Source: Litorivita pollutaquae (GTDB taxonomy: Bacteria > Pseudomonadota > Alphaproteobacteria > Rhodobacterales > Rhodobacteraceae). Taken from it: a DNA stretch of 64,000 bases. The stretch lies in assembly GCF_003205515.1 (NCBI RefSeq), contig NZ_KZ826481.1:476660-540659 (forward strand), in the 5' to 3' direction. The first letter of the stretch is position 1. Each line of letters begins with the position of its first letter. Under the pieces are notes generated by a model that made no database searches, was not told the DNA's origin, and worked only from the letters and a program-made list of their open reading frames with translations. Both the position numbers and the translations under genes were made by a program. This document shows, one piece after another, positions 237 through 38,713 of this stretch.

Positions 237-929
237 ATGAACATCATCTGGCTTGGCCACGGCAGCTGGCGCATCGAAATCGAAGATCAAATCCTGTTGA
301 TTGACCCATGGGTAACGGACAATCCGATGATGCCCGACGACAAGGTCGATGCCGCGCTGGACGGCGCGACACATATCATCGTCACCCATGGCCATTTCGA
401 CCACAGCCATGACATCGTGGATATCTCCAAATCCCGTGACCTACCGGTCTCTGCGATCTTTGAACTTGCGGCCTATCTGCATAGCCAAGGCGCCAAAGAG
501 GGCCACGGCTGGAACAAAGGCGGCACCATCCCATTGGGCAAGGCCACCGCCACGCTGGTGCCCGCCTCGCATAGCTCCTCGTTGGTGATCGACGGGCGCG
601 GCGCCTATATGGGCGCGGAATGCGGCGTCATTCTCAAAGGCGAGGGTCATACGATCTACCTGTCGGGCGACACCACGATCATGGCCGATATGGAATGGAT
701 CGGCGATTATTATAAACCCGACATCGGCATCCTTTCGGCCGGTGGCTATTACACCATGGATATGGAGGCCACAGCCTATGCGGCCAAGCGTTACTTCAAT
801 TTCGACACGCTGATCCCCGGCCACTACCGCACCTTCCCCGCGCTGGAGCAATCGGCCGAAAAACTCGCTGCCGCCCTGCCCGATGTGAATGTGATCGAAC
901 CCGAGGTTCTCACCCCCATCACCTTTTAA
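237..929 (+). CDS. UPF0173 metal-dependent hydrolase (metallo-beta-lactamase fold)
   Basis: The 230-residue protein has the usual UPF0173 length and an MBL-fold zinc motif HGHFDH at residues 51-56. The opening (MNIIWLGHGSWRIEI) and the DPWVTDNP segment are typical of this family. A strong ribosome-binding site (AGAGGAG) sits a few bases before the ATG. Members are cytosolic metal-dependent hydrolases whose natural substrate is mostly undefined. It stands alone, divergent from gatC and convergent with tadA. Confidence 0.85.
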   Translation: MNIIWLGHGSWRIEIEDQILLIDPWVTDNPMMPDDKVDAALDGATHIIVTHGHFDHSHDIVDISKSRDLPVSAIFELAAYLHSQGAKEGHGWNKGGTIPLGKATATLVPASHSSSLVIDGRGAYMGAECGVILKGEGHTIYLSGDTTIMADMEWIGDYYKPDIGILSAGGYYTMDMEATAYAAKRYFNFDTLIPGHYRTFPALEQSAEKLAAALPDVNVIEPEVLTPITF

Positions 930-27306: not shown

Positions 27307-28307
27307 GCGTCTTCTCCTGCCGAAACCGGCGTCTTGCTGCGAGTGGCCCAAAGATCTGCGGCCATTTTATCCCCTGCGGCCACATCCGGCACAGCGCCCA
27401 GCGTATAAAGCGCAAGCCCCGCCGTGCCAATCACCGTGGCGGTGGCAAAATCATCCTCTGCCGTCCCGTTCCACAGCGCGGCGCAGGTAATGCCCGCGCC
27501 GTCCGCCTCGTGCAAACGGCGGGTTTCATCCAAGAGCGGCGGCGCGGAGACTTCGGATTTCACCCCGCCGCGCAGCCCATAAGCCAACACGGATTTTGAT
27601 GGGTGCCGTTCAAATTCGCCGCCACCGCCTTTGATCACACTGAGCGTTTCGCGGCCCAGCAACAGCGCCGCATCCGATTGCAAATCGCGATACGACGGGT
27701 GAAACACGCCTTGAACAGCGGCAGGAGCCGCCGACGGGTTGAGCATCCGCGCGACCGTGTTGATACAGGATCGAAGATTGAATTTTGATCGCAATTTCAA
27801 AAGGTTGAAGACATCCGGCGAGAGGGCCTCAAGCGGGGTATAAGCGATATTGTCCGCAACCAGCGCCGATGTCGCCGCCTCCGGCGTTTCGCAAATTTTG
27901 ATCCCCAAGGGACCCAGCGCATCGCGCACCGAGGCATTGGTGCCTTGATGGGAATTGTAGCCATGCAGATGCACGCGGTATCCGGCCTGCGCGACCAAAA
28001 GGGCCGACAACACAAACAATGGCGCGCCGCGCGTGCGTCCAGCGGCGAAGCTGGGCCAATCGAGCGCCGCGCCAATGCCGCGCCACCCCTGCCCGGCCGA
28101 AGTTTCGCCAATGGCTTCGACAAAACCGGCAATCTCGCCGGCGCTCTCGCCGCGATAGCGCATCAACATCAGCAGCGCGCCAAGGGATTCAGGATCGGCC
28201 TGTCCTGCCATGATGATGCGCATGGCCTCGGCGGCCTCCGCGCGGTCCAGCGGGCGGGCACGGCCCGGACCGCGACCCAGAATTCGTACATATGGCGCAA
28301 GGCTCAT
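27303..28307 (-). CDS. TrpD2/YbiB-like glycosyltransferase-family protein of the nitrate cluster
   Basis: The 334-residue protein has the two-domain layout of anthranilate phosphoribosyltransferase (helical domain with EAMRIIMAGQADPESLGALLMLMRYRGE, then an alpha/beta domain with KGGGGEFERHPSK). It belongs to the TrpD2/YbiB side branch, whose E. coli member binds nucleic acid rather than making tryptophan. Related genes often sit beside assimilatory nitrate/nitrite reductase genes. It overlaps nasA by four bases at its start and cysG at its end. Confidence 0.8.
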   Translation of the reverse strand: MSLAPYVRILGRGPGRARPLDRAEAAEAMRIIMAGQADPESLGALLMLMRYRGESAGEIAGFVEAIGETSAGQGWRGIGAALDWPSFAAGRTRGAPLFVLSALLVAQAGYRVHLHGYNSHQGTNASVRDALGPLGIKICETPEAATSALVADNIAYTPLEALSPDVFNLLKLRSKFNLRSCINTVARMLNPSAAPAAVQGVFHPSYRDLQSDAALLLGRETLSVIKGGGGEFERHPSKSVLAYGLRGGVKSEVSAPPLLDETRRLHEADGAGITCAALWNGTAEDDFATATVIGTAGLALYTLGAVPDVAAGDKMAADLWATRSKTPVSAGEDA

Positions 28308-30946
28308 TCAGCGGCGACTTTCGGCAAATGGTTGGTCAAAAGCGCGGCCAGTTCCGGTTTGCAAGATCCGCAATTGGTACCCGCGCAGGTTTTCGCGCCC
28401 AAAGCATCGACCGTATCGGCACCCTCGGCTATGGCTGATTTTAGCGTATTCACGCCGACATTGAAACACGAACATACCACCGCACCAGGATCGGGGCGAT
28501 CCGCGCCGGGGCGACCTGCAAGCGCTTCGAAGGCCGGTGTTTGCGTGCCGATCAAAGACACCGCAAAGGCACGGGCCACGGCGACCGGATCAGGCGCGGC
28601 AAAGAACAGGGCCACAATCTCCCCCGCCACGTCGGTCAAGGCCACGCGGACGATACCGCTGGCGGCATCCTCGATCACCGTGGCCGATGCGGCGTCCAAA
28701 CCGGTGATGTCGCGCAGATCTTGCTCCCAATCCTCGGGCGGTTTGAAACCGGCGATTTCGGCCTGCCAACCCGTGGTGGTGCGGGCCTTTGCAACATAGG
28801 GGCGCTTGCACTCTATTGCGGCGCTGGTGGCGAGGAAAGCATACCATCGGGCGCCGAAGGCTTCGGCCTTGACCGCGCCGCCTTTGGTGGCGGGTTGGCC
28901 GGATACGGGATCGACGGCCGGTGCCATAAGCGTATTGATCCGCCCCGAAGGCGCAAATTGCGCGGTCCAATGCATCGGCACAAAGATCTCGCCGCGCGCC
29001 ACCTTGGACGAGATCAGCGCCCGCAACGTGGCGGTGCCATATCGCGATGACAGCTTGACCAATCCGGCGTCGCGCAGACCAAGTGCAAAGGCATCCTCGG
29101 GGTGAATTTCGGCAAAAGGTTCGGCCAAATGCTGACTGAGCCGCGCGGATTTTCCGGTGCGGGTCATGGTGTGCCAATGGTCGCGCACACGGCCAGAGTT
29201 GAGCACAAAGGTATTCTCGGCCTCGGGGGAAACACATTGCGGCGCGGTGATCGCAAGCATCTTTGCGCGCCCGTCCGCGTGGTAAAACCCGCCTTCGGCA
29301 AAGAAACGCCCGCCGGGGGTCTCGCCCTTGCGGACTGGCCATTGCACGGGAGCCAATGCGTCATATTCTGCCTCCGTCAGGTCACCCAAACCGGAAATAT
29401 CAAAGTCGCGGCCAAACCGTGTGCCAAGGTTGGAAAGCGCAGCGTATTCGCGGAACACATCGGCGGCGCTTTGATAATCGAAGGCATCCGCCCAGCCCAT
29501 CCGCGCCGCTACATCACATAGGATTTTCCAATCAGGCCGTGCCGCGCCGGGCGCCTCAAGGAAAGGGCGCTGGCGCGATATGCGCCGCTCGGAGTTGGTG
29601 ACTGTACCGGATTTTTCGCCCCACCCCGTCGCCGGCAACAAGACATCAACCAAATCACCGGTATCGGTGCGGGCCATGATATCGGTGACCACGGTGAAGG
29701 GCACATTTGCGATAGCCTCGGCGACATTTCCCGCGTCGGGCAGGGACACGGCAGGGTTGGTCGATATAATCCACAGCGCCTTGATCTTGCCCGAGGCACA
29801 GGCCTCGAACAGGTCCACGGCCTTGAGACCGGCATGGGTGCAGATTGTCGGGCTATCCCAAGCTTCTTGCACCGCCGCGCGGTGATCGGCATTCTCGATA
29901 TCAAGATGCCAGCCAAGCATATTGGCCAACCCCCCCACCTCGCGCCCGCCCATGGCATTGGGTTGGCCAGTGACAGAAAACGGCCCCATCCCGGCGCGAC
30001 CAATCCGGCCGGTGGCAAGGTGGCAATTGATGATCGCATTGACCTTATCGGTGCCGCAAATCGATTGATTGACGCCCTGACTATAGACGGTAACCACCTT
30101 GGGTGTGCCGATCCACATGTCGCAAAAGGCATTAATTTGCTCGGCGTTCAAACCGCTGAGCGCGGGATCGCAGGCCTGCGCGGCCTCTATTGCGGCATCA
30201 AATCCGTTTACATGGGCGCTGATATAGTCCTTGTCCACTGCGCCGCGTCGGGAGATCTCGGCCAAGAGCGCATTAAACAATGCCGCATCCCCATCGGGGG
30301 CGATGGGCAGATGCAGATCGGCAATATCGCATGTCGCGGTGCGCCGCGGGTCGATATTGACAACGCGCATATCAGGGCGGGCCTGCTTCGCCGCGACGAG
30401 GCGTTGATATAAAACCGGATGGCACCATGCGAGGTTCGAGCCCACCAGCACAACCAAATCCGCCTCATCCAGATCTTCGTAGGTGCCGGGCACGGTGTCG
30501 GTGCCAAAAGCGCGTTTGTGCCCCGCCACTGACGACGCCATGCAAAGCCGCGAATTGGTGTCGATATTGGCCGAACCCATGTAGCCTTTCATCAACTTGT
30601 TAGCGACATAATAGTCTTCGGTCAGGAGCTGACCCGAGACATAAAACGCAACGCTGTCAGGGCCATGATCGCGGATCGCCCGCGAAAACTGACCTGCGAT
30701 CAAATCAAGGGTGCTGTCCCAATCGGCTTGTTTGCCATGCACCATCGGGTGCAACAAACGCCCCTCAAGGTCGATGGTCTCGCCCAAGGCCGAACCTTTG
30801 GAGCAGAGCCGCCCGAAGTTCGCCGGATGGTCGGGATCGCCCTTGATCGTGCCATCCTGCCCGGCCAATACACCGCAACCCACGCCGCAATAGGGACATG
30901 TGGTGCAGGTGATCTCTGCGCGGTTTTGCGATGTCTTGCCCGCCAT
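28304..30946 (-). CDS. nasA: Assimilatory nitrate reductase catalytic subunit
   Basis: The 880-residue molybdopterin oxidoreductase is cytoplasmic (no Tat signal). It has an N-terminal 4Fe-4S site C17-x2-C20-x3-C24-x23-C48, the Mo-bis-MGD domains, a molydop-binding domain, and a C-terminal BFD-like 2Fe-2S domain (VVCSCFNVG and CAGTNCGSC) as in Klebsiella-type NasA. It reduces nitrate to nitrite with electrons passed from a FAD protein. The gene follows the FAD oxidoreductase with 57 bases between and is coupled to the TrpD2-like gene. Confidence 0.93.
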   Translation of the reverse strand: MAGKTSQNRAEITCTTCPYCGVGCGVLAGQDGTIKGDPDHPANFGRLCSKGSALGETIDLEGRLLHPMVHGKQADWDSTLDLIAGQFSRAIRDHGPDSVAFYVSGQLLTEDYYVANKLMKGYMGSANIDTNSRLCMASSVAGHKRAFGTDTVPGTYEDLDEADLVVLVGSNLAWCHPVLYQRLVAAKQARPDMRVVNIDPRRTATCDIADLHLPIAPDGDAALFNALLAEISRRGAVDKDYISAHVNGFDAAIEAAQACDPALSGLNAEQINAFCDMWIGTPKVVTVYSQGVNQSICGTDKVNAIINCHLATGRIGRAGMGPFSVTGQPNAMGGREVGGLANMLGWHLDIENADHRAAVQEAWDSPTICTHAGLKAVDLFEACASGKIKALWIISTNPAVSLPDAGNVAEAIANVPFTVVTDIMARTDTGDLVDVLLPATGWGEKSGTVTNSERRISRQRPFLEAPGAARPDWKILCDVAARMGWADAFDYQSAADVFREYAALSNLGTRFGRDFDISGLGDLTEAEYDALAPVQWPVRKGETPGGRFFAEGGFYHADGRAKMLAITAPQCVSPEAENTFVLNSGRVRDHWHTMTRTGKSARLSQHLAEPFAEIHPEDAFALGLRDAGLVKLSSRYGTATLRALISSKVARGEIFVPMHWTAQFAPSGRINTLMAPAVDPVSGQPATKGGAVKAEAFGARWYAFLATSAAIECKRPYVAKARTTTGWQAEIAGFKPPEDWEQDLRDITGLDAASATVIEDAASGIVRVALTDVAGEIVALFFAAPDPVAVARAFAVSLIGTQTPAFEALAGRPGADRPDPGAVVCSCFNVGVNTLKSAIAEGADTVDALGAKTCAGTNCGSCKPELAALLTNHLPKVAAE

Positions 30947-31003: not shown

Positions 31004-32254
31004 TTACCCGGTCAGGCTGCACCGCCCGCCATAGGGTTCAAGGGGGATTGCCCCCTCATGTGAAGGGCCAAAAAGCAATTGCTCGCGCATGTTGCTAACA
31101 TCGGCGCCGCTGCGGATCAGACCATAAAACCAACTGCTATCAGCCGTATCGCCATACATCACCGCACCGACAAGGCGGCTGTTTTCGAGGACCAGGCGTT
31201 TGTAATTGCCGCCTTCAGGGTCGCGCAGCGTGATGTCCTCGCGCCCCTCGCCTCCGGCAAAATCACCAGCAGAGAACAGATCGCATCCGGTAACTTTAAG
31301 CTTTGTTGAAACCTCTTTTGGGGCAAACGCCGCCTGCCCGCCCGTCAGATGCGTCGCCAGAACTTCGGCCTGATCATACAGCGGCGCAACGAGACCAAAG
31401 AGAGCGCCGTTGTGCTCAACGCATTCGCCAAGGGCATAGACATCCGGCGTGGCGGTTTGCATCTGGTCATTCACCGGAATGCCGCGCGCGACCGCAATGC
31501 CGGCGTCTTTTGCCACACCGGTATTGGGGCGAATGCCCACGGCCATCACCAACAGATCACAGGGCAATTTACGCCCATCCTCAAGCACAAGGGCGCACAC
31601 GCGGCCATCGTGGCCCAGAATTTCATGCGAATTGGCGCCGCAGATCACCTTGATACCGCGATCAATGAGCGCCTTACGGAGCAAAAATCCCGCTGCTTCG
31701 TCCAATTGCCGTTCCATCAGGTGGCCCATGAGGTGCACCACCGTGACCTCCATACCGCGCGCCGCAAGGCCGGCGGCGGCCTCAAGGCCCAAGAGACCGC
31801 CGCCAATAACAACCGCGCGAGCACCGGGGTTGGCGGCGGCTTGGATCATCATGTCGGTGTCTTCAAGATCGCGATAGGCAATCACACCGCTCAAATCACT
31901 GCCCGGCAAGGGGATGATAAAGGGCGCAGATCCTGTCGCGATCACCAAGCGATCATAGGCAACCGTGCCGTTTTCGCCGGTGACGGTTTTCGCGTCCGTA
32001 TCAATGCCGGTCACCTTTTCGCCAAACCGGCAGGTCACGCCATGAGCAGCATACCATGCGTCATCATGGGTCACGATTTCGGCATAGGTTTTTTCGCCCG
32101 ACAGAACCGGCGAAAGCATGATCCGGTTATAGGTGCCGCGCGGCTCGGCGTTGAAAAGCGTGATCTCATAGGCGCCGGCATGATCCACGCACAGCCGTTC
32201 AACCAACCGCCCGGCCGCCATACCGGCCCCGATGATGACCAATCGTTCGGCCAT
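31004..32254 (-). CDS. nasB: FAD/NAD(P)-dependent oxidoreductase, nitrate reductase electron-transfer subunit (NasB-like)
   Basis: The 416-residue protein has an N-terminal FAD Rossmann motif (VIIGAGMAAG), a second dinucleotide motif (VIGGGLLGLEAAAGL) and the DLLVMAVGIRPN segment. It corresponds to the N-terminal third of NirB but stops before the 2Fe-2S and siroheme domains. It therefore most likely passes NAD(P)H electrons to NasA. The ATG shares a base with the nrtCD stop (TAATG). The symbol is used for the role, and naming differs between organisms. Confidence 0.82.
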   Translation of the reverse strand: MAERLVIIGAGMAAGRLVERLCVDHAGAYEITLFNAEPRGTYNRIMLSPVLSGEKTYAEIVTHDDAWYAAHGVTCRFGEKVTGIDTDAKTVTGENGTVAYDRLVIATGSAPFIIPLPGSDLSGVIAYRDLEDTDMMIQAAANPGARAVVIGGGLLGLEAAAGLAARGMEVTVVHLMGHLMERQLDEAAGFLLRKALIDRGIKVICGANSHEILGHDGRVCALVLEDGRKLPCDLLVMAVGIRPNTGVAKDAGIAVARGIPVNDQMQTATPDVYALGECVEHNGALFGLVAPLYDQAEVLATHLTGGQAAFAPKEVSTKLKVTGCDLFSAGDFAGGEGREDITLRDPEGGNYKRLVLENSRLVGAVMYGDTADSSWFYGLIRSGADVSNMREQLLFGPSHEGAIPLEPYGGRCSLTG

Positions 32255-33936
32255 TACGCCGCGTCCTCATTCGCAGCGGCCTGCTTTGGCGCGGGTTTCG
32301 CACCGTGCTCGTATTCCTCAAGGAAATCAAGAACCTCTTGGCGATAGTTGTAGTAATCCGGATGCTCCAGAAGGGCCTTACGGGTGCGCGGGCGCGGCAG
32401 GTCCACGTCGACGATTTTGCCGATCGTGGCTTGCGGGCCGTTGGTCATCATCACCACGCGGTCCGCCAAAAGGATCGCTTCGTCCACGTCATGGGTGACG
32501 CAAACGGCGGTGACCTTGGTGCGGCTCCAGACCTCCATCAAAACCTCTTGAAGCTCCCAACGGGTGAGACTGTCGAGCATGCCGAACGGCTCATCCAAAA
32601 GCAGTAGTTTCGGCGACAAGGCAAAGGCGCGGGCGATACCGACCCGTTGCTTCATGCCGTTGGACATATCAGAGGCAGGACGGTCCATCGCATCCGCCAA
32701 TCCGACGCGCTCAAGGTAGTATTCGACCACATCTTGACGCTCGGCGCGGCTGGCGGTCGGATAAACACGGTCCACCCCGATCGAGCAGTTCTCGCGCGCC
32801 GTCAGCCACGGAAACAAGGAAGGCGATTGGAACACCACCGCGCGTTCGGGGTCGGCACCCATCACGGCACGGCCATCCAAGCGGATCACCCCTTTTGAGA
32901 TCGAATTGAGCCCCGCCGCCATGGTCAAAACCGTGGATTTACCGCAACCGGAATGGCCAATCAGCGAGACAAACTCGCCGCGGTTGAGTTTAAGGTTGAA
33001 ATCCTCGACCACCGTCAACGGACCTTTGGGCGTCGGATAGATTTTGTGCAACTGCGAAAAATCGAGGAAATTGCTATCGATCATCCCCTCTTGGGCCTTG
33101 GCCACCGCTGCCGGCACCCCATGAATTGGCGTGACATTGGGCAAGGCGCGACTTTCTTCGGCTTTGGCATCGATCCCCACATCCATCAGATGGGTCGTTA
33201 CCTGCGCGCGCAGTTTTTTGAACCCTTCGTCGTGGTTCATCGCCATGCGGTCACGCGGGCGTGGAATATCCACCTTGAACGCCTCGCCCAAAGTGCCATC
33301 GGGATTGAGCGGAATGATCCGATCGGCCAAAATAATGGCTTCATCTACGTCATTGGTGATGAGAATGACGGTCTTTTTATCGGTTTCCCAGATTTGCAAA
33401 ATCTCATCGGCAAGGTTTGCGCGGGTCAGAGCATCCAGCGCCGAAAGCGGCTCGTCGAGCAGCAATAATTCCGGCGACAAGGCCAATGCACGCGCCACGG
33501 CGACCCGTTGGCGCATACCGCCCGACAGCTCCGCAGGGCGGCGGTGCGCAGCATGGGTCAAGCCCACCATCTTGATGTAATGGTCGATCTTGGCCTGCTT
33601 TTCCTTTTTGGAAATTTTTGGCGCAACCGCATCCACGGCAAGACCAATATTGCCCGACACCGTCAGCCACGGCATCAGCGAGTAGCTTTGAAACACCAAC
33701 CCGCGTTCGGGGCCGGGCCCGTCGATCTCTTTGCCTTTGAACGTCACGGTGCCTTTGGTGGGTTTTTCCAAACCCGCCACCATGTTCATCAGCGTCGACT
33801 TGCCGGTTCCGGAGAACCCGAGGATGGCAAGAAATTCGCCCTCCGGCACTTCGAGGTTAATGTTCGACAGCACCTGTTTATATTGCGTGCCTTCGCCGAA
33901 GCCTTTGGAGACGTTGTCAAATTTAAGAAAGCTCAT
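32254..33936 (-). CDS. nrtC: Nitrate ABC importer, double ATPase in one chain
   Basis: This 560-residue protein contains two complete ABC ATPase domains. The first (from about residue 1) has GFSGTGKST, LSGGMRQR and LLLLDEPLSALD. The second (from about residue 280) has GHSGCGKST, SNGMKQR and LLLLDEPFGMLD. A roughly 40-residue linker joins them. In cyanobacteria NrtC is an ATPase fused to a binding domain and NrtD a separate ATPase, whereas here two ATPases are fused. It powers nitrate uptake with NrtA and NrtB. The start at 33936 follows a GAGG site eight bases after the nrtB stop. Confidence 0.9.
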   Translation of the reverse strand: MSFLKFDNVSKGFGEGTQYKQVLSNINLEVPEGEFLAILGFSGTGKSTLMNMVAGLEKPTKGTVTFKGKEIDGPGPERGLVFQSYSLMPWLTVSGNIGLAVDAVAPKISKKEKQAKIDHYIKMVGLTHAAHRRPAELSGGMRQRVAVARALALSPELLLLDEPLSALDALTRANLADEILQIWETDKKTVILITNDVDEAIILADRIIPLNPDGTLGEAFKVDIPRPRDRMAMNHDEGFKKLRAQVTTHLMDVGIDAKAEESRALPNVTPIHGVPAAVAKAQEGMIDSNFLDFSQLHKIYPTPKGPLTVVEDFNLKLNRGEFVSLIGHSGCGKSTVLTMAAGLNSISKGVIRLDGRAVMGADPERAVVFQSPSLFPWLTARENCSIGVDRVYPTASRAERQDVVEYYLERVGLADAMDRPASDMSNGMKQRVGIARAFALSPKLLLLDEPFGMLDSLTRWELQEVLMEVWSRTKVTAVCVTHDVDEAILLADRVVMMTNGPQATIGKIVDVDLPRPRTRKALLEHPDYYNYRQEVLDFLEEYEHGAKPAPKQAAANEDAA

Positions 33937-33944
33937 GTCAGGCC

Positions 33945-35030
33945 TCACCGGTTTGCGCTAAAGGTAAACAGCTGTTGCAAGGCGAACATCACACGGTCCA
34001 ACAAGAAGCCAATGATGCCGATGGTGAAGACCGCGACCATGATTTTGGCCAGCGATTGCGACGACCCGTTTTGGAATTCATCCCAAACAAATTTGCCCAA
34101 ACCGGGGTTCTGAGCGAGCATTTCAGCCGCAATCAAAACCATCCATCCAACACCCAGTGACAGGCGCAGACCGGTAAAGATCAACGGCAGAGCCGAAGGC
34201 AAAACCAATTTGGTGATCTTGGTCCAGGTGCCCATTTTGAGGACCTTGGACACGCTCACAAGATCTTTGTCGATCGAGGCCACGCCGAGCGATGTGTTGA
34301 TCAAAGTTGGCCAAAGCGAGCAGAGCGTCACAGTGATCGCCGAGACGAGGAAGGATTTCGAGAACATCCCGTCATTGGTGGCATAAACCGCCGATACGAC
34401 CATGGTCACGATGGGCAGCCAAGCCAGCGGCGAGACCGGTTTGAAAATTTGCACAATCGGGTTGATCGCAGCATTGGCAGTCTTTGACAGACCGGCGGCG
34501 ATGCCGAGCGGCACGGCGACGATCGTCGCAATCAAAAAGCCGAAGAAAACGGTTTTGATCGAGGTCCAGATTTGCTGGTAATAGGTCGGCTTGCCAGTGT
34601 AGCTGCGGAATTTGACTTTGTCTTCCTTGCCGGCGGCGATCAATTTGTCGTTGCGCACGTCCTGGCGCTCGTAAAACTGCGCCTCTTTGTCTTTCTCACG
34701 CAGGTGATCGGCATGCAAATTGCCGACCTGCTCCCATACCGCCATCGGGCCGGGGATCGCACCAAGCGAGGTTTGCACCCTCGGCGCAAGGCTCGACCAC
34801 ATAAACAAGAACACGAGAATGGCGAGCAAAGGCACGCCAAGCTGCTGCCATATTTCCTTGGCCTGCGTGCGCGGGTTGTCGCCGGCAATGGCTTTGAGGA
34901 TCGGTGTCACCCACGGCAAGCCCACAACCTTAAGCCATCCATCGGCCTTGTTGATGCGGGTAAATGTCCGCGCGCGGCGCGCGTCTTTCGCGGCGCTGGC
35001 TGCGAGGGTATCGGGGTCAATGACGGTCAT
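33945..35030 (-). CDS. nrtB: Nitrate ABC importer permease
   Basis: The 361-residue inner-membrane protein has a long polar N-terminal region, one early span (VPLLAILVFLFMWSSLA) and a BPD_transp_1 domain. Its insert before the second span (AQFYERQDVRNDKLIAAGKEDKVKFRSYTG) is typical of NrtB-type permeases. The ATG at 35030 (MTVIDPDTLAASAAKD) is preferred to an upstream frame that would read through the hairpin after nrtA. It forms the channel for nitrate import. Confidence 0.88.
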   Translation of the reverse strand: MTVIDPDTLAASAAKDARRARTFTRINKADGWLKVVGLPWVTPILKAIAGDNPRTQAKEIWQQLGVPLLAILVFLFMWSSLAPRVQTSLGAIPGPMAVWEQVGNLHADHLREKDKEAQFYERQDVRNDKLIAAGKEDKVKFRSYTGKPTYYQQIWTSIKTVFFGFLIATIVAVPLGIAAGLSKTANAAINPIVQIFKPVSPLAWLPIVTMVVSAVYATNDGMFSKSFLVSAITVTLCSLWPTLINTSLGVASIDKDLVSVSKVLKMGTWTKITKLVLPSALPLIFTGLRLSLGVGWMVLIAAEMLAQNPGLGKFVWDEFQNGSSQSLAKIMVAVFTIGIIGFLLDRVMFALQQLFTFSANR

Positions 35031-35095
35031 AAAGCTGGTCCTTGGACGGGCGTGGTATGGAATTGGGGCGGAGCGAAAGTGCCGTGATAAAGCAT

Positions 35096-35132
35096 GTCCG
35101 CCGCCCTGCCCCATGCGAGGCGGGCGGCGGGC
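35096..35132 (-). other. Stable hairpin between nrtA and nrtB
   Basis: A nine-base perfect GC stem (35098-35106 with 35122-35130, extendable by a GU and a GC pair) encloses about 15 bases. No T-tract follows on the minus strand, so it is more likely an mRNA-stabilising or processing hairpin that favours nrtA expression than a terminator. Confidence 0.5.
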
Positions 35133-35139
35133 AAAGGGA

Positions 35140-36507
35140 TCATCCCTTGACTTGATTGCCTTCGACGGTCTGGCTGGATTTCAAACCGATCGGCAGGCTG
35201 TCGATGTAGGCGTTGGGGGTTTTGCCATCATAACCGATGCCATCAATGATATCGCCCGACGGGGTCGGCGCTTTGTAACCGTCGCTGTCCCATGGGAAAT
35301 CACCTTCATTGGCAAGGCCTTCGTCAACCAGATGACGCGCCGCTTCGAGGTAAATCTCGGGCTTGTAGACCGATTTGGCGATCTCGTCATACCAGCTGTC
35401 AGGTTTGGTTTCGGCGATTTGGCCCCAACGGCGCATTTGGGTCAGGTACCAAATCGCATCCGAATAATAGGGGTATGTGGCATTGTGGCGGAAGAAGGTA
35501 TTGAAGTCAGGCACATCGCGTTTGTCGCCTTTTTCATATTCAAATGTGCCGGTCATCGAATTGGCAATGACCTCTGCATCGGCGCCAACGTATTCAGACC
35601 GCGACAGGATCTCGACCGCCTCTTCACGGTTGGCGTTGTCATTTTCATCCAGCCAAATCGCCGCACGGATCAAGGCTTTGGTCACGGCAATCGCGGTTTG
35701 CGGATTTTCCTGCTGGAAGGAGGCAGACATGCCGAAGACTTTCTCGGGATTATTTTTCCACAATTCGTAATCGGTGATCACCGGAACGCCGATACCTTTG
35801 AAAACAGCGGCTTGGTTCCACGGCTCGCCGACGCAATAGCCATAGATCGTGCCGGCTTCCATTGTGGCGGGCATCTGCGGTGGCGGCGTCACAGAAAGCA
35901 GGACATCGGCGCCGATTTGCCCTGACACATCCTCGGGGGAATAATACCCCGGCTGCAAACCACCGGCGGCAAGCCAGTAGCGCAATTCATAGTTATGCGT
36001 CGAAACGGGGAAGACCATCCCCATGTTGAAAGCCTTGCCGTCGTCTTTGTATTTCTCGACGACCGGCTTCAAAGAAGAGGCCGAAATCGGGTGCACGGGC
36101 TTGCCGTTCTCCTCGGGCACAAACTCTTTCATCTGCTCCCATATTTCGTTCGAGACGGTGATCGCATTGCCGTTCAAGTCCATCGAAAATGGCGTGATGA
36201 TATGGGCTTCGGTGCCGTAACCGATCGTGGCGGCCAAAGGTTGACCGGCGAGCATATGCGCCCCGTCCAAGGTGCCAGAAATCACACCATCGAGCAGCAC
36301 TTTCCAATTGGCTTGCGCTTCCAGCGTAACGAACAGGCCCTCATCCTCGAAATAACCTTTTTCATAGGCGACGGCGAGCGGCGCCATATCGGTCAGTTTG
36401 ATAAAGCCGAATTTCAGCTCATCTTTTTCAACATCGAGCAGTTCGGCCATGGCGGGCGAAGCGATGAGAGCAGTGGTGGTCAAAGCCCATTTCAAAACGG
36501 TTTTCAT
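35140..36507 (-). CDS. nrtA: Nitrate-binding periplasmic protein
   Basis: The 455-residue protein has a Sec signal peptide ([21 protein letters not shown]) and the CmpA/NrtA fold ([26 protein letters not shown], then [18 protein letters not shown]). It captures nitrate, and possibly nitrite, for the NrtB/NrtC importer. It is the first coding gene of the assimilation operon and is preceded by an ANTAR leader with a terminator, so its expression should depend on NasT antitermination. Confidence 0.92.
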
Positions 36508-36590: not shown

Positions 36591-36647
36591 AAAAAAGCCG
36601 CGCGATAGGATCAGCTCGAAGCAGGAGCGGAGATCGTATCGAGCGGC
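36591..36647 (-). terminator. Leader terminator controlled by NasT
   Basis: On the minus strand the arms 36647-36632 and 36612-36597 pair at 14 of 16 positions around a 19-base loop. TTTTTT follows at 36596-36591. The first bases of its 5' arm are also used by the second hexaloop hairpin, so the two structures exclude each other. This is the switch expected of an ANTAR antitermination leader. Confidence 0.85.
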
Positions 36648-36713
36648 ATTGCTCTTCGTGGCAAACCCCGGCGGCGGGGATCTCGGGGGCGGCGATGCTA
36701 CGTTGCATCCGCC
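36641..36713 (-). ncRNA. ANTAR dual-hexaloop RNA motif in the nrtA leader
   Basis: The first hairpin (36713-36691) has a GATGC/GCATC stem, a one-base bulge and outer GGC/GCC pairs, with hexaloop AACGTA. The second hairpin (36654-36641) has a GAGC/GCTC stem with hexaloop AATGCC. Both loops have A at position 1 and G at position 4, the known consensus for ANTAR-protein binding. The nasT product, an ANTAR protein, is encoded just upstream. Confidence 0.85.
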
Positions 36714-36816
36714 CTATGGGTTCGAAGTTACAGGAGCCCCTTGGCGCTTGGCGAGAGAGAGTCTTTGCATTTGCAGAAAGATTGTGGCGAGGTTGCTGCA
36801 TCTGCACAAAAAATCA

Positions 36817-37998
36817 TCACGAAACCGCAGATGGGTCGAAAATTTGACCGTCAAAAAACGCATCCGGGCCAAGAATCATCTCGCCACGCGTCGAGGATAC
36901 GGCTTCGGGGGACTGCATTGCGCCTTCCAATTTTTCGGACGCCCCCGGCATATCCGCACCGATCGGCGAGAGGTTTGCACGATACAGATCCGCGCGAAAA
37001 CAAGCCTTGGCCCTACGGATCGCCGCAGCGGGGTCAAGCCCGTGACGGCGTGCAATACCGTTGGCAATCCAAGCGGCCTGACTGCGCCATGGGAAATTCG
37101 TGGCACCGCGATGCAGGCAGAGAAATTGCGGCACATGCACCCCCAAAGCGCGAGGACGGGTGATGATTTGTCCTGCAAGGGCGCGGTCAATCACTGTCGC
37201 CGGCAAATCCAGATGTTCAGAACGCGCCAGCACCTCGGAAGCCAGGGGCAGGTTGCCCTCTTGGCCAAGCCAATGCGAGGCGCGATACACCGCGCGCATC
37301 AAGGCTGCGGTCAACTCCGGGTTGGCTTCGGCCCATTCATGGCGCACGCCAAGCACTTTTTCCGGCGCGAAGGACCAGATAGACGCCCCCGGCAGGATCA
37401 ATTCACCTGCCTGCGCCTCGACCGCCATCGACCCCCACGGCTCCCCGACACAAAAAGCGTCGATCTCGCCATCGGCCAGAGTTTCGGCCATCAAGGGCGG
37501 CGGCACGATCCGCACATCAAGGCAGCGGTCTGTGTCCACGCCCAGCGCACCCAACCAATAGTGGAGCAATTCCACGTGCATCGAAAAGGGAAAGGGCACG
37601 CCGACGCGCAAAGGCGATCCTGCCGCTTCGATCAGGGCGCGGCCGGTCTCTTCGGGTGCCGTGAACCGCCCGCTCCAGCCTGCCGCGCGCATCTTATCCG
37701 CCAATTCCGTTGAAACCCCAATGGCATTGCCATTGACCGACAGCACCATCAATGCATCGACCTGCGCCGGCAACCCGCCAAGACCCAATGACATTGCAAT
37801 TGGCAAAGGCGACAGGATATGCGCCGCGTCCAGATGGCCAAGGGCCAAAAGATCCCGCAGCGCCGACCACGAGGGTTGGCGCAAAAGTTGAAGGTTGATC
37901 CCCTCCTCGGCGGCGAAATTCATCTCGCGCGCCAGAACCAAAGGCGCGCTGTCGACCAAGGGTACATAACCGCAATTCAGGGTGGTGAGGTTTTTCAT
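36817..37998 (-). CDS. nasS: NasS nitrate sensor (soluble NrtA-like protein)
   Basis: The 393-residue protein belongs to the NrtA/CmpA binding family but has no signal peptide (MKNLTTLNCGYVPLVDSAPL), so it stays in the cytoplasm. In Paracoccus and Azotobacter NasS binds NasT and holds it inactive until nitrate or nitrite is present. Its start overlaps the nasT stop by four bases, consistent with a stoichiometric NasS-NasT complex. It lies immediately upstream of the leader it would control. Confidence 0.9.
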   Translation of the reverse strand: MKNLTTLNCGYVPLVDSAPLVLAREMNFAAEEGINLQLLRQPSWSALRDLLALGHLDAAHILSPLPIAMSLGLGGLPAQVDALMVLSVNGNAIGVSTELADKMRAAGWSGRFTAPEETGRALIEAAGSPLRVGVPFPFSMHVELLHYWLGALGVDTDRCLDVRIVPPPLMAETLADGEIDAFCVGEPWGSMAVEAQAGELILPGASIWSFAPEKVLGVRHEWAEANPELTAALMRAVYRASHWLGQEGNLPLASEVLARSEHLDLPATVIDRALAGQIITRPRALGVHVPQFLCLHRGATNFPWRSQAAWIANGIARRHGLDPAAAIRRAKACFRADLYRANLSPIGADMPGASEKLEGAMQSPEAVSSTRGEMILGPDAFFDGQIFDPSAVS

Positions 37999-38579
37999 TG
38001 AAGCAGTTCCGTCGCAGTAATGAGAGCTTGGGCCACATCGGTAAGCTTGCGATTCTGGTCCATCGCGGTGCGGCGCAGCAAGGAATAGGCCTCATCTTCG
38101 CCAATGCCCTTGGCTTGCATCAGCAACCCTTTGGCACGGTCGATGGTTTTGCGTTCGGCGAGGGCCAACTTTGCAGCGTCGAGTTCAGAACGCATCTGCG
38201 AGATCATCCGGAACCGCGCAATGGCGGTTTCCAAGACCGGTTTGATCCGGTCTTTCTTGAGGCCATCCACCACATAAGCGGACAGGCCCGCCTTGATCGC
38301 AGCCCCGGTCATACCGTCATCGGAGCGATCGACAAACATCGCCACGGGGCGGGTGCTGGCCCCGGATGCTGCCGACAGGTTTTCCAAAAGGTCGCGCGAC
38401 GGGTTGGCCAGATCGATCAACACCAAATCGGGATCAATCTCGGACAAGCGCCGCGCGAGGGCGCGGGTCTCGCTCAAAACCACAACATCGGTCCAACCGC
38501 CATCGGCCAGACCTTGAAGGATTTCGGCGGAGCGTCCAGCGTCAGCTTCGACCACCGCAATTTTCAGATCATAACTCAT
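37995..38579 (-). CDS. nasT: NasT antiterminator, ANTAR response-regulator-like protein
   Basis: The 194-residue protein has an N-terminal receiver-like domain (D56 in LVLIDLANP), a coiled linker and a C-terminal ANTAR RNA-binding domain (about 130-190, AERKTIDRAKGLLMQAKGIGEDEAYSLLRRTA). The receiver domain probably serves as the NasS contact rather than a phosphorylation site. Free NasT binds the two-hexaloop RNA and prevents termination. The start at 38579 (MSYDLKIAVVE) matches the family. Confidence 0.92.
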   Translation of the reverse strand: MSYDLKIAVVEADAGRSAEILQGLADGGWTDVVVLSETRALARRLSEIDPDLVLIDLANPSRDLLENLSAASGASTRPVAMFVDRSDDGMTGAAIKAGLSAYVVDGLKKDRIKPVLETAIARFRMISQMRSELDAAKLALAERKTIDRAKGLLMQAKGIGEDEAYSLLRRTAMDQNRKLTDVAQALITATELLQ

Positions 38580-38713
38580 AAAGCGAGCAGTGCCGCGCCC
38601 GCCGCACGCCGCCAAGATCACAGCGCAGCCAGTGCCACGAGGGGCGGGTCTCTTATAACTTACGGTGCAATTATGGGCGGTTAGCCCAAAAAAAGGGCAG
38701 CGTGAAAACCCTC

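Follow-up and report, generated by a model that had tools for sequence, protein, structure and literature searches.

A predicted three-hairpin NasS-NasT antitermination leader upstream of the nrtA operon of Litorivita pollutaquae and its relatives

The leader between nasS and nrtA of Litorivita pollutaquae probably functions as a nitrate/nitrite-responsive NasS-NasT antitermination switch of the nrtABC-nas operon, in a variant form with three hairpins, H1, HM, and H2. Its assignment as a NasS-NasT/ANTAR antitermination leader, which the original prediction had made for the DNA before nrtA, is strongly supported by sequence, by gene context, and by conservation in about 70 relatives, that is, Rhodobacterales leaders with covarying stems; an overlap of H2 with the terminator like that seen here recurs in 73 of 75 leaders. 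This type of switch is already known; the three-hairpin anatomy is conserved across the sampled Rhodobacterales and, provisionally, appears to be undescribed, as no account of a three-hairpin ANTAR leader was found in the open literature searched, whose coverage is incomplete. The window, i.e. the whole stretch of DNA that was analysed, comprises 64,000 nt of the forward strand of contig NZ_KZ826481.1 (assembly GCF_003205515.1, positions 476,660–540,659), and coordinates are internal to it (Table 1).

Genes and anatomy of the nrtA leader

Both nasT and nasS lie upstream of the leader, as had been predicted, and downstream of it, past nrtA, come genes for a permease and a double ATPase, then for an FAD-dependent oxidoreductase and a nitrate reductase of the molybdopterin type; together they make up an assimilatory nitrate operon adjacent to the nasT-nasS pair. 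NasT is the only ANTAR protein encoded in the 3.42-Mb genome, its gene being located just upstream of nasS and the leader, and is the cognate ANTAR protein of the system. NasS has no evident signal peptide, judged from the N terminus only, in line with a cytoplasmic NrtA-like protein; the N terminus of NrtA itself reads like a signal peptide. The nasT and nasS reading frames overlap by 4 bases (37995–37998, minus strand) in an ATGA arrangement that suggests translational coupling. The transporter ATPase (32254–33948, minus strand) has 564 residues and two complete ABC domains, and thus is an NrtC-NrtD fusion that has no NrtA-like domain.

Table 1. Features of the leader and its gene neighbourhood, listed in the direction of transcription
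Feature	Coordinates	Strand	Description
nasT	37995..38621	-	Response-regulator-like, C-terminal ANTAR RNA-binding domain (Pfam PF03861, E 9e-22; weak Response_reg)
nasS	36817..37998	-	NrtA-like nitrate/nitrite sensor (Pfam NMT1_2, E 2.7e-66)
H1, upstream ANTAR-type hairpin	36687..36714	-	Hexaloop AACGTA at 36704-36699; inner stem GATGC/GCATC
HM, middle hairpin	36666..36679	-	CCCC-GCCGCC-GGGG or CCC-GCCGCCG-GGG; loop G1/G4 in the window
H2, antiterminator hairpin	36641..36654	-	GAGC[AATGCC]GCTC; 11 nt past HM
Terminator hairpin	36597..36647	-	5' arm (36647-36632) shared with the loop and 3' stem of H2; 3' arm 36612-36597
T6 tract of intrinsic terminator	36591..36596	-	Read directly from the sequence
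nrtA	35140..36507	-	Periplasmic nitrate-binding ABC transporter protein, first gene of the controlled operon (NMT1_2, E 2.2e-95)
nrtB	33945..35114	-	ABC transporter permease (PF00528, E 1.3e-22)
nrtC/D	32254..33948	-	ATPase, two ABC domains (PF00005 in two stretches, E 3.8e-68)
FAD-dependent oxidoreductase, NasB/NirB-like	31004..32254	-	PF07992, PF18267; nitrate/nitrite pathway role assigned by context
nasA-type assimilatory nitrate reductase	28304..30946	-	C-terminal BFD-like [2Fe-2S] domain; PF00384, PF01568, PF04879, PF04324

The two hairpins originally predicted, with hexaloops AACGTA (H1) and AATGCC (H2), are both read on the minus strand, and in the window each has a strict A1/G4 loop with a C:G closing pair. 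The stem of H1, the upstream of the two, is prolonged outwards by GGGCG/CGCCC, with a bulge of two bases, and covaries among relatives. The six-base loop of H2 overlaps the 5' arm of the intrinsic terminator, a hairpin likewise present as predicted, in which GCCGCTCGATACGATC (36647–36632) pairs with GATCCTATCGCGCGGC (36612–36597) at 14 of 16 positions and which together with its T6 tract occupies 36647–36591. Because the 5' arm of the terminator starts at position 4 of the H2 loop (G4), H2 and the terminator are mutually exclusive, in agreement with the original prediction, and foldings reproduce both states: the full leader folds as H1, a linker hairpin, and the terminator, and an RNA that stops at 36640 folds as H1, the linker hairpin, and H2. 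The GC-rich linker from H1 to H2 is also present, although the length of 36 bases first given for it depends on the chosen end of H1; it measures 32 nt between the outer stems and 39 nt between the inner stems. The small hairpin that had been suspected within it (CCCC-GCCGCC-GGGG) is found there, and is HM.

None of 200 shuffled versions is as stable as the full leader (z −3.3), and the terminator by itself gives a similar value (z −3.0 to −3.5). The 81-nt upstream part that holds the hairpins is of ordinary stability when taken alone (z −1.0), so that folding energy alone proves little and comparison among relatives decides.

Conservation across Rhodobacterales

A search with the NasS protein returned 80 loci, nearly all from Rhodobacterales, with homologues 42–71% identical and with nrtA downstream of nasS in almost every case. 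From 74 of these loci and the window, 65 non-redundant leaders were obtained, and in nearly all of them H1 bears a hexaloop, the loop of H2 has A1/G4, and the terminator overlaps H2. When a covariance model was trained on 25 relatives with the window left out, it matched 36640–36713 of the minus strand at E = 7.7e-4 over 617 kb, with a score of 23.0 bits that is low among the relatives (up to 84 bits), and the same segment ranked first when the model was run over the whole genome (E = 0.004). Since the model was built without the window, this match independently confirms that the arrangement is not due to chance. The covariance search of the minus-strand leader that had accompanied the original prediction as a check thus succeeded with a model made from relatives; Rfam has no family for the element, and its models gave no match above gathering score across the whole window and, at E ≤ 10, only chance matches in the leader. 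The next-best match in the genome (L083, E 0.36), considered as a second NasT target, falls inside a glucose-6-phosphate-isomerase-like gene and was rejected, leaving a single target.

Within an alignment of 72 rows, which was fitted to the model and so leans towards it, and whose related sequences are not independent, 90.3% of the cells in the H1, HM, and H2 helices are paired as against 75.0% after shuffling, and 179 cells carry changes on both sides as against 55 in shuffled and slid controls. Both-side changes affect 6 of the 8 pairs of H1, whose closing C:G pair is kept in all 71 rows that have letters there, and the stem of H2 is nearly invariant. Four loci (L019, L026, L032, L037) have an H1-like hairpin past nasS without H2 or the terminator; the next gene in these is only about 30% like NrtA, and the leader seems to have been remodelled.

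The middle hairpin and its alternatives

HM emerged from two analyses that did not presuppose it. RNAalifold, given 25 relatives, predicted exactly H1, HM, and H2 unprompted, and a parse blind to loop sequence, which selected the best hairpin in the stretch separating H1 from H2, located one near H2 in essentially every leader. The linker hairpins gain only modestly in stability over shuffled sequences (mean z 1.3), and the case for HM consequently rests on its position, covariation, and loop. The core pairs of HM hardly vary in the 25-sequence alignment and prove nothing there, so that the wider alignment is needed: across its 72 rows, 94.4% of HM cells are paired, both-side changes occur in 4 of 5 pairs, and at one pair position U-A, G-C, C-G, and A-U are all represented. 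The HM loop ranges from 6 to 8 bases and has seven in most relatives. Among seven-base loops from the loop-blind parse, G occupies position 4 in 34 of 37 and a purine position 1 in 32 of 37; in the model alignment, where 31 different seven-base loops occur, all 31 have G4 and 30 begin with a purine, while positions 2, 3, 5, 6, and 7 vary and seldom hold G. Eight-base loops keep G4 in 10 of 16 rows only. HM is thus a conserved third hairpin with an ANTAR-like loop (purine at 1, G4), relaxed to G1/G4 in the window.

The spacing of the hairpins bears on which of them would form the canonical pair. In the EutV elements, 5–12 nt separate the two hairpins, and extension of this linker to 14 nt, or by 20 nt, greatly impaired or prevented antitermination (PMC3369931, PMC8934654); in actinobacteria, spacings of 2–25 nt have been accepted (PMC8164766). 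The 32 nt between H1 and H2 of the window, or 21–49 nt in relatives by the inner-stem parse, exceed the short linker, which is attained only if HM with its G1/G4 loop is taken as the partner of H2, at 11 nt here and at 2–10 nt in nearly all relatives. Because the H1-H2 linker is too long, the leader is best classed as a variant that would act in the manner of the dual-hexaloop ANTAR family without being a standard member of it. The original prediction had treated H1 and H2 as the ANTAR pair across this linker; its ANTAR antitermination leader stands, but what it took for a linker is the conserved HM at the published distance from H2.

Further nasS-flanking regions, 26 from a class-wide and 20 from a phylum-wide sample, extend the comparison. 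Several of them (L091, L093, L097, L121, L126), including other alphaproteobacteria (L091, L093, L097, L121), have leaders with two hairpins that lie 2–8 nt apart and both bear A1/G4 hexaloops. As this pair, at that distance, corresponds in position to HM and H2, HM stands in the place of the canonical first hairpin and H1 is the extra one. Three-hairpin leaders occur among these further alphaproteobacterial regions in L092 (HM loop GATGAC) and L115, the latter from a distant alphaproteobacterium with three perfect A1/G4 hexaloop hairpins followed by a terminator (about 349–430, reverse strand of that stretch). More than half of the class- and phylum-wide regions have no such leader beside nasS, and the distribution outside Rhodobacterales is accordingly patchy. 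A subgroup of five leaders with a more distant NrtA (L011, L012, L018, L036, L049) shows a strict A1/G4 hexaloop in HM, carried by a stem of 6–7 bp; in three of these leaders the H1 loop has shifted to G1. Such leaders may reflect a role swap in which either upstream hairpin is able to carry the main site, an impression from small numbers.

Given the switch, the reading we favour, and consider somewhat better than even, is that HM serves as a third NasT site, although the G1 in place of A1 in the window and the seven-base loop of most relatives mean that binding by NasT may be weak or absent. Considerably less likely, yet deserving of weight, is that only H1 and H2 are bound by NasT and that HM is a passive spacer hairpin, folding the long linker away and bringing H1 near H2. 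Such a division of labour would agree with the loops of H1 and H2, which are strictly A1/G4 and closed by C:G in the window and in most relatives (features that the search partly required), and with the G1 and GC-rich loop of the window's HM and the 6-to-8-base range of HM loops. A pure spacer, however, would have no need of G4 and a purine at position 1, both of which HM keeps while neighbouring loop positions vary, and in the two-hairpin relatives a canonical ANTAR hexaloop stands in HM's place.

A different objection concerns the switch as a whole: the hairpin before nrtA could be a plain, unregulated terminator of the nasTS transcript, with the nrtA promoter downstream. In its favour, a consensus promoter scan detected no promoter within the leader or upstream of H1, so that inclusion of H1 in the transcript is presumed. 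An unregulated terminator would nevertheless leave unexplained why the loops of H1, HM, and H2 are conserved and why H2 so constantly shares bases with the terminator arm, and a regulated promoter for nrtA alone would find scant space in the 83 bases from the T tract to the nrtA start codon; we consider this explanation improbable. Upstream of H1, the Rhodobacterales leaders yielded no credible conserved match to a sigma-54 promoter; in some distant relatives (L091, L093, L097, L107), sigma-54-type sequences (TGGCAC-N5-TTGCT) can be made out by eye immediately before the leader. Still more improbable is the proposal that HM is a DNA inverted repeat, the operator of another regulator, with H1 and H2 alone acting as RNA: DNA inverted repeats likewise show compensatory changes and a large subset keeps TCCC-N7-GGGA almost unchanged, but the conserved loop, RNNGNNN, is asymmetric, the stem varies widely by lineage (TCCC, GCCC, CCCC, ACTCA, GGGTTC) while the loop G4 persists, and the distance from HM to H2 is tightly kept.

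Mechanism, known relatives, and implications

The antitermination model builds on the observed sequences, gene context, conservation, covariation, and exclusivity of H2 and the terminator, and from these we infer for L. pollutaquae the nitrate response, the binding of NasT, and the identity of the bound hairpins. When nitrate is lacking, NasS would hold NasT, the nascent leader would fold into the terminator, and transcription would end before nrtA. With nitrate present, NasT would be freed from NasS, engage the leader hairpins as they emerge, and stabilise H2; with H2 held, the terminator could not form, as its 5' arm is shared with the loop and 3' stem of H2, and polymerase would continue into nrtA. 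HM and H2, with their gap of 11 nt, would occupy the positions of the canonical pair, and H1 would probably be an extra upstream NasT hairpin that acts as a recruitment site.

Among the closest known systems is the nasA leader of Paracoccus denitrificans, also an alphaproteobacterium of the Rhodobacterales, in which NasS binds nitrate/nitrite and releases NasT, which binds the leader (PMC3795266), and in which neither induction nor growth on nitrate occurs once the upstream leader hairpin HI is mutated (PMC5424462). The order nasT-nasS-leader-assimilation operon is shared; the first target in P. denitrificans, however, is nasA and not the nrtA binding protein. Compared by its published description, that leader has two hairpins, HI and HII, with no third described; their positions, 137 and 91 bp ahead of nasA, set them about as far apart as H1 and H2 are here (PMC3795266, PMC5424462). 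Of the precedents named in the original prediction, Paracoccus thus holds as a NasS-NasT system, but the Klebsiella protein is NasR, a one-component relative, and not NasT. The NasR/nasF leader of Klebsiella oxytoca resembles the present one in its nitrate-responsive ANTAR antitermination and in the A1 and G4 of its P1 and P2 loops; it differs in having two hairpins and a single protein with its own nitrate-sensing domain (PMC7496416, PMC3369936), whereas here NasS senses and NasT has the RNA-binding domain. The EutV elements of the Enterococcus faecalis eut genes likewise have A1/G4 hexaloops, the last of which overlaps the 5' arm of the terminator, but consist of two hairpins with the short linker given above, as opposed to the 32 nt from H1 to H2 with HM between (PMC3369931, PMC8934654). 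In the AmiC-AmiR/amiE leader of Pseudomonas aeruginosa, too, a binding-protein-like sensor holds an ANTAR antiterminator (compared in PMC3795266), although that system responds to amides and serves another operon.

How an ANTAR dimer handles two hairpins is a disputed question, and the structure of EutV with RNA suggested that one hairpin is bound at a time, with hand-over (PMC8934654). It is tempting to speculate, with a confidence just short of even, that Rhodobacterales nas leaders are three-site ANTAR arrays, in which NasT is recruited at H1, passes HM, and clamps H2 as each emerges from the polymerase; if so, the two-hairpin rule and the short-linker limit would fail in this lineage. A natural three-hairpin leader with one relaxed loop, together with its two-hairpin relatives, offers a ready series for testing recruitment and hand-over. 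Searches for ANTAR targets are also affected: models that require two A1/G4 hexaloops and a short linker would mispair or miss such leaders, and the leader of the window escapes every Rfam model.
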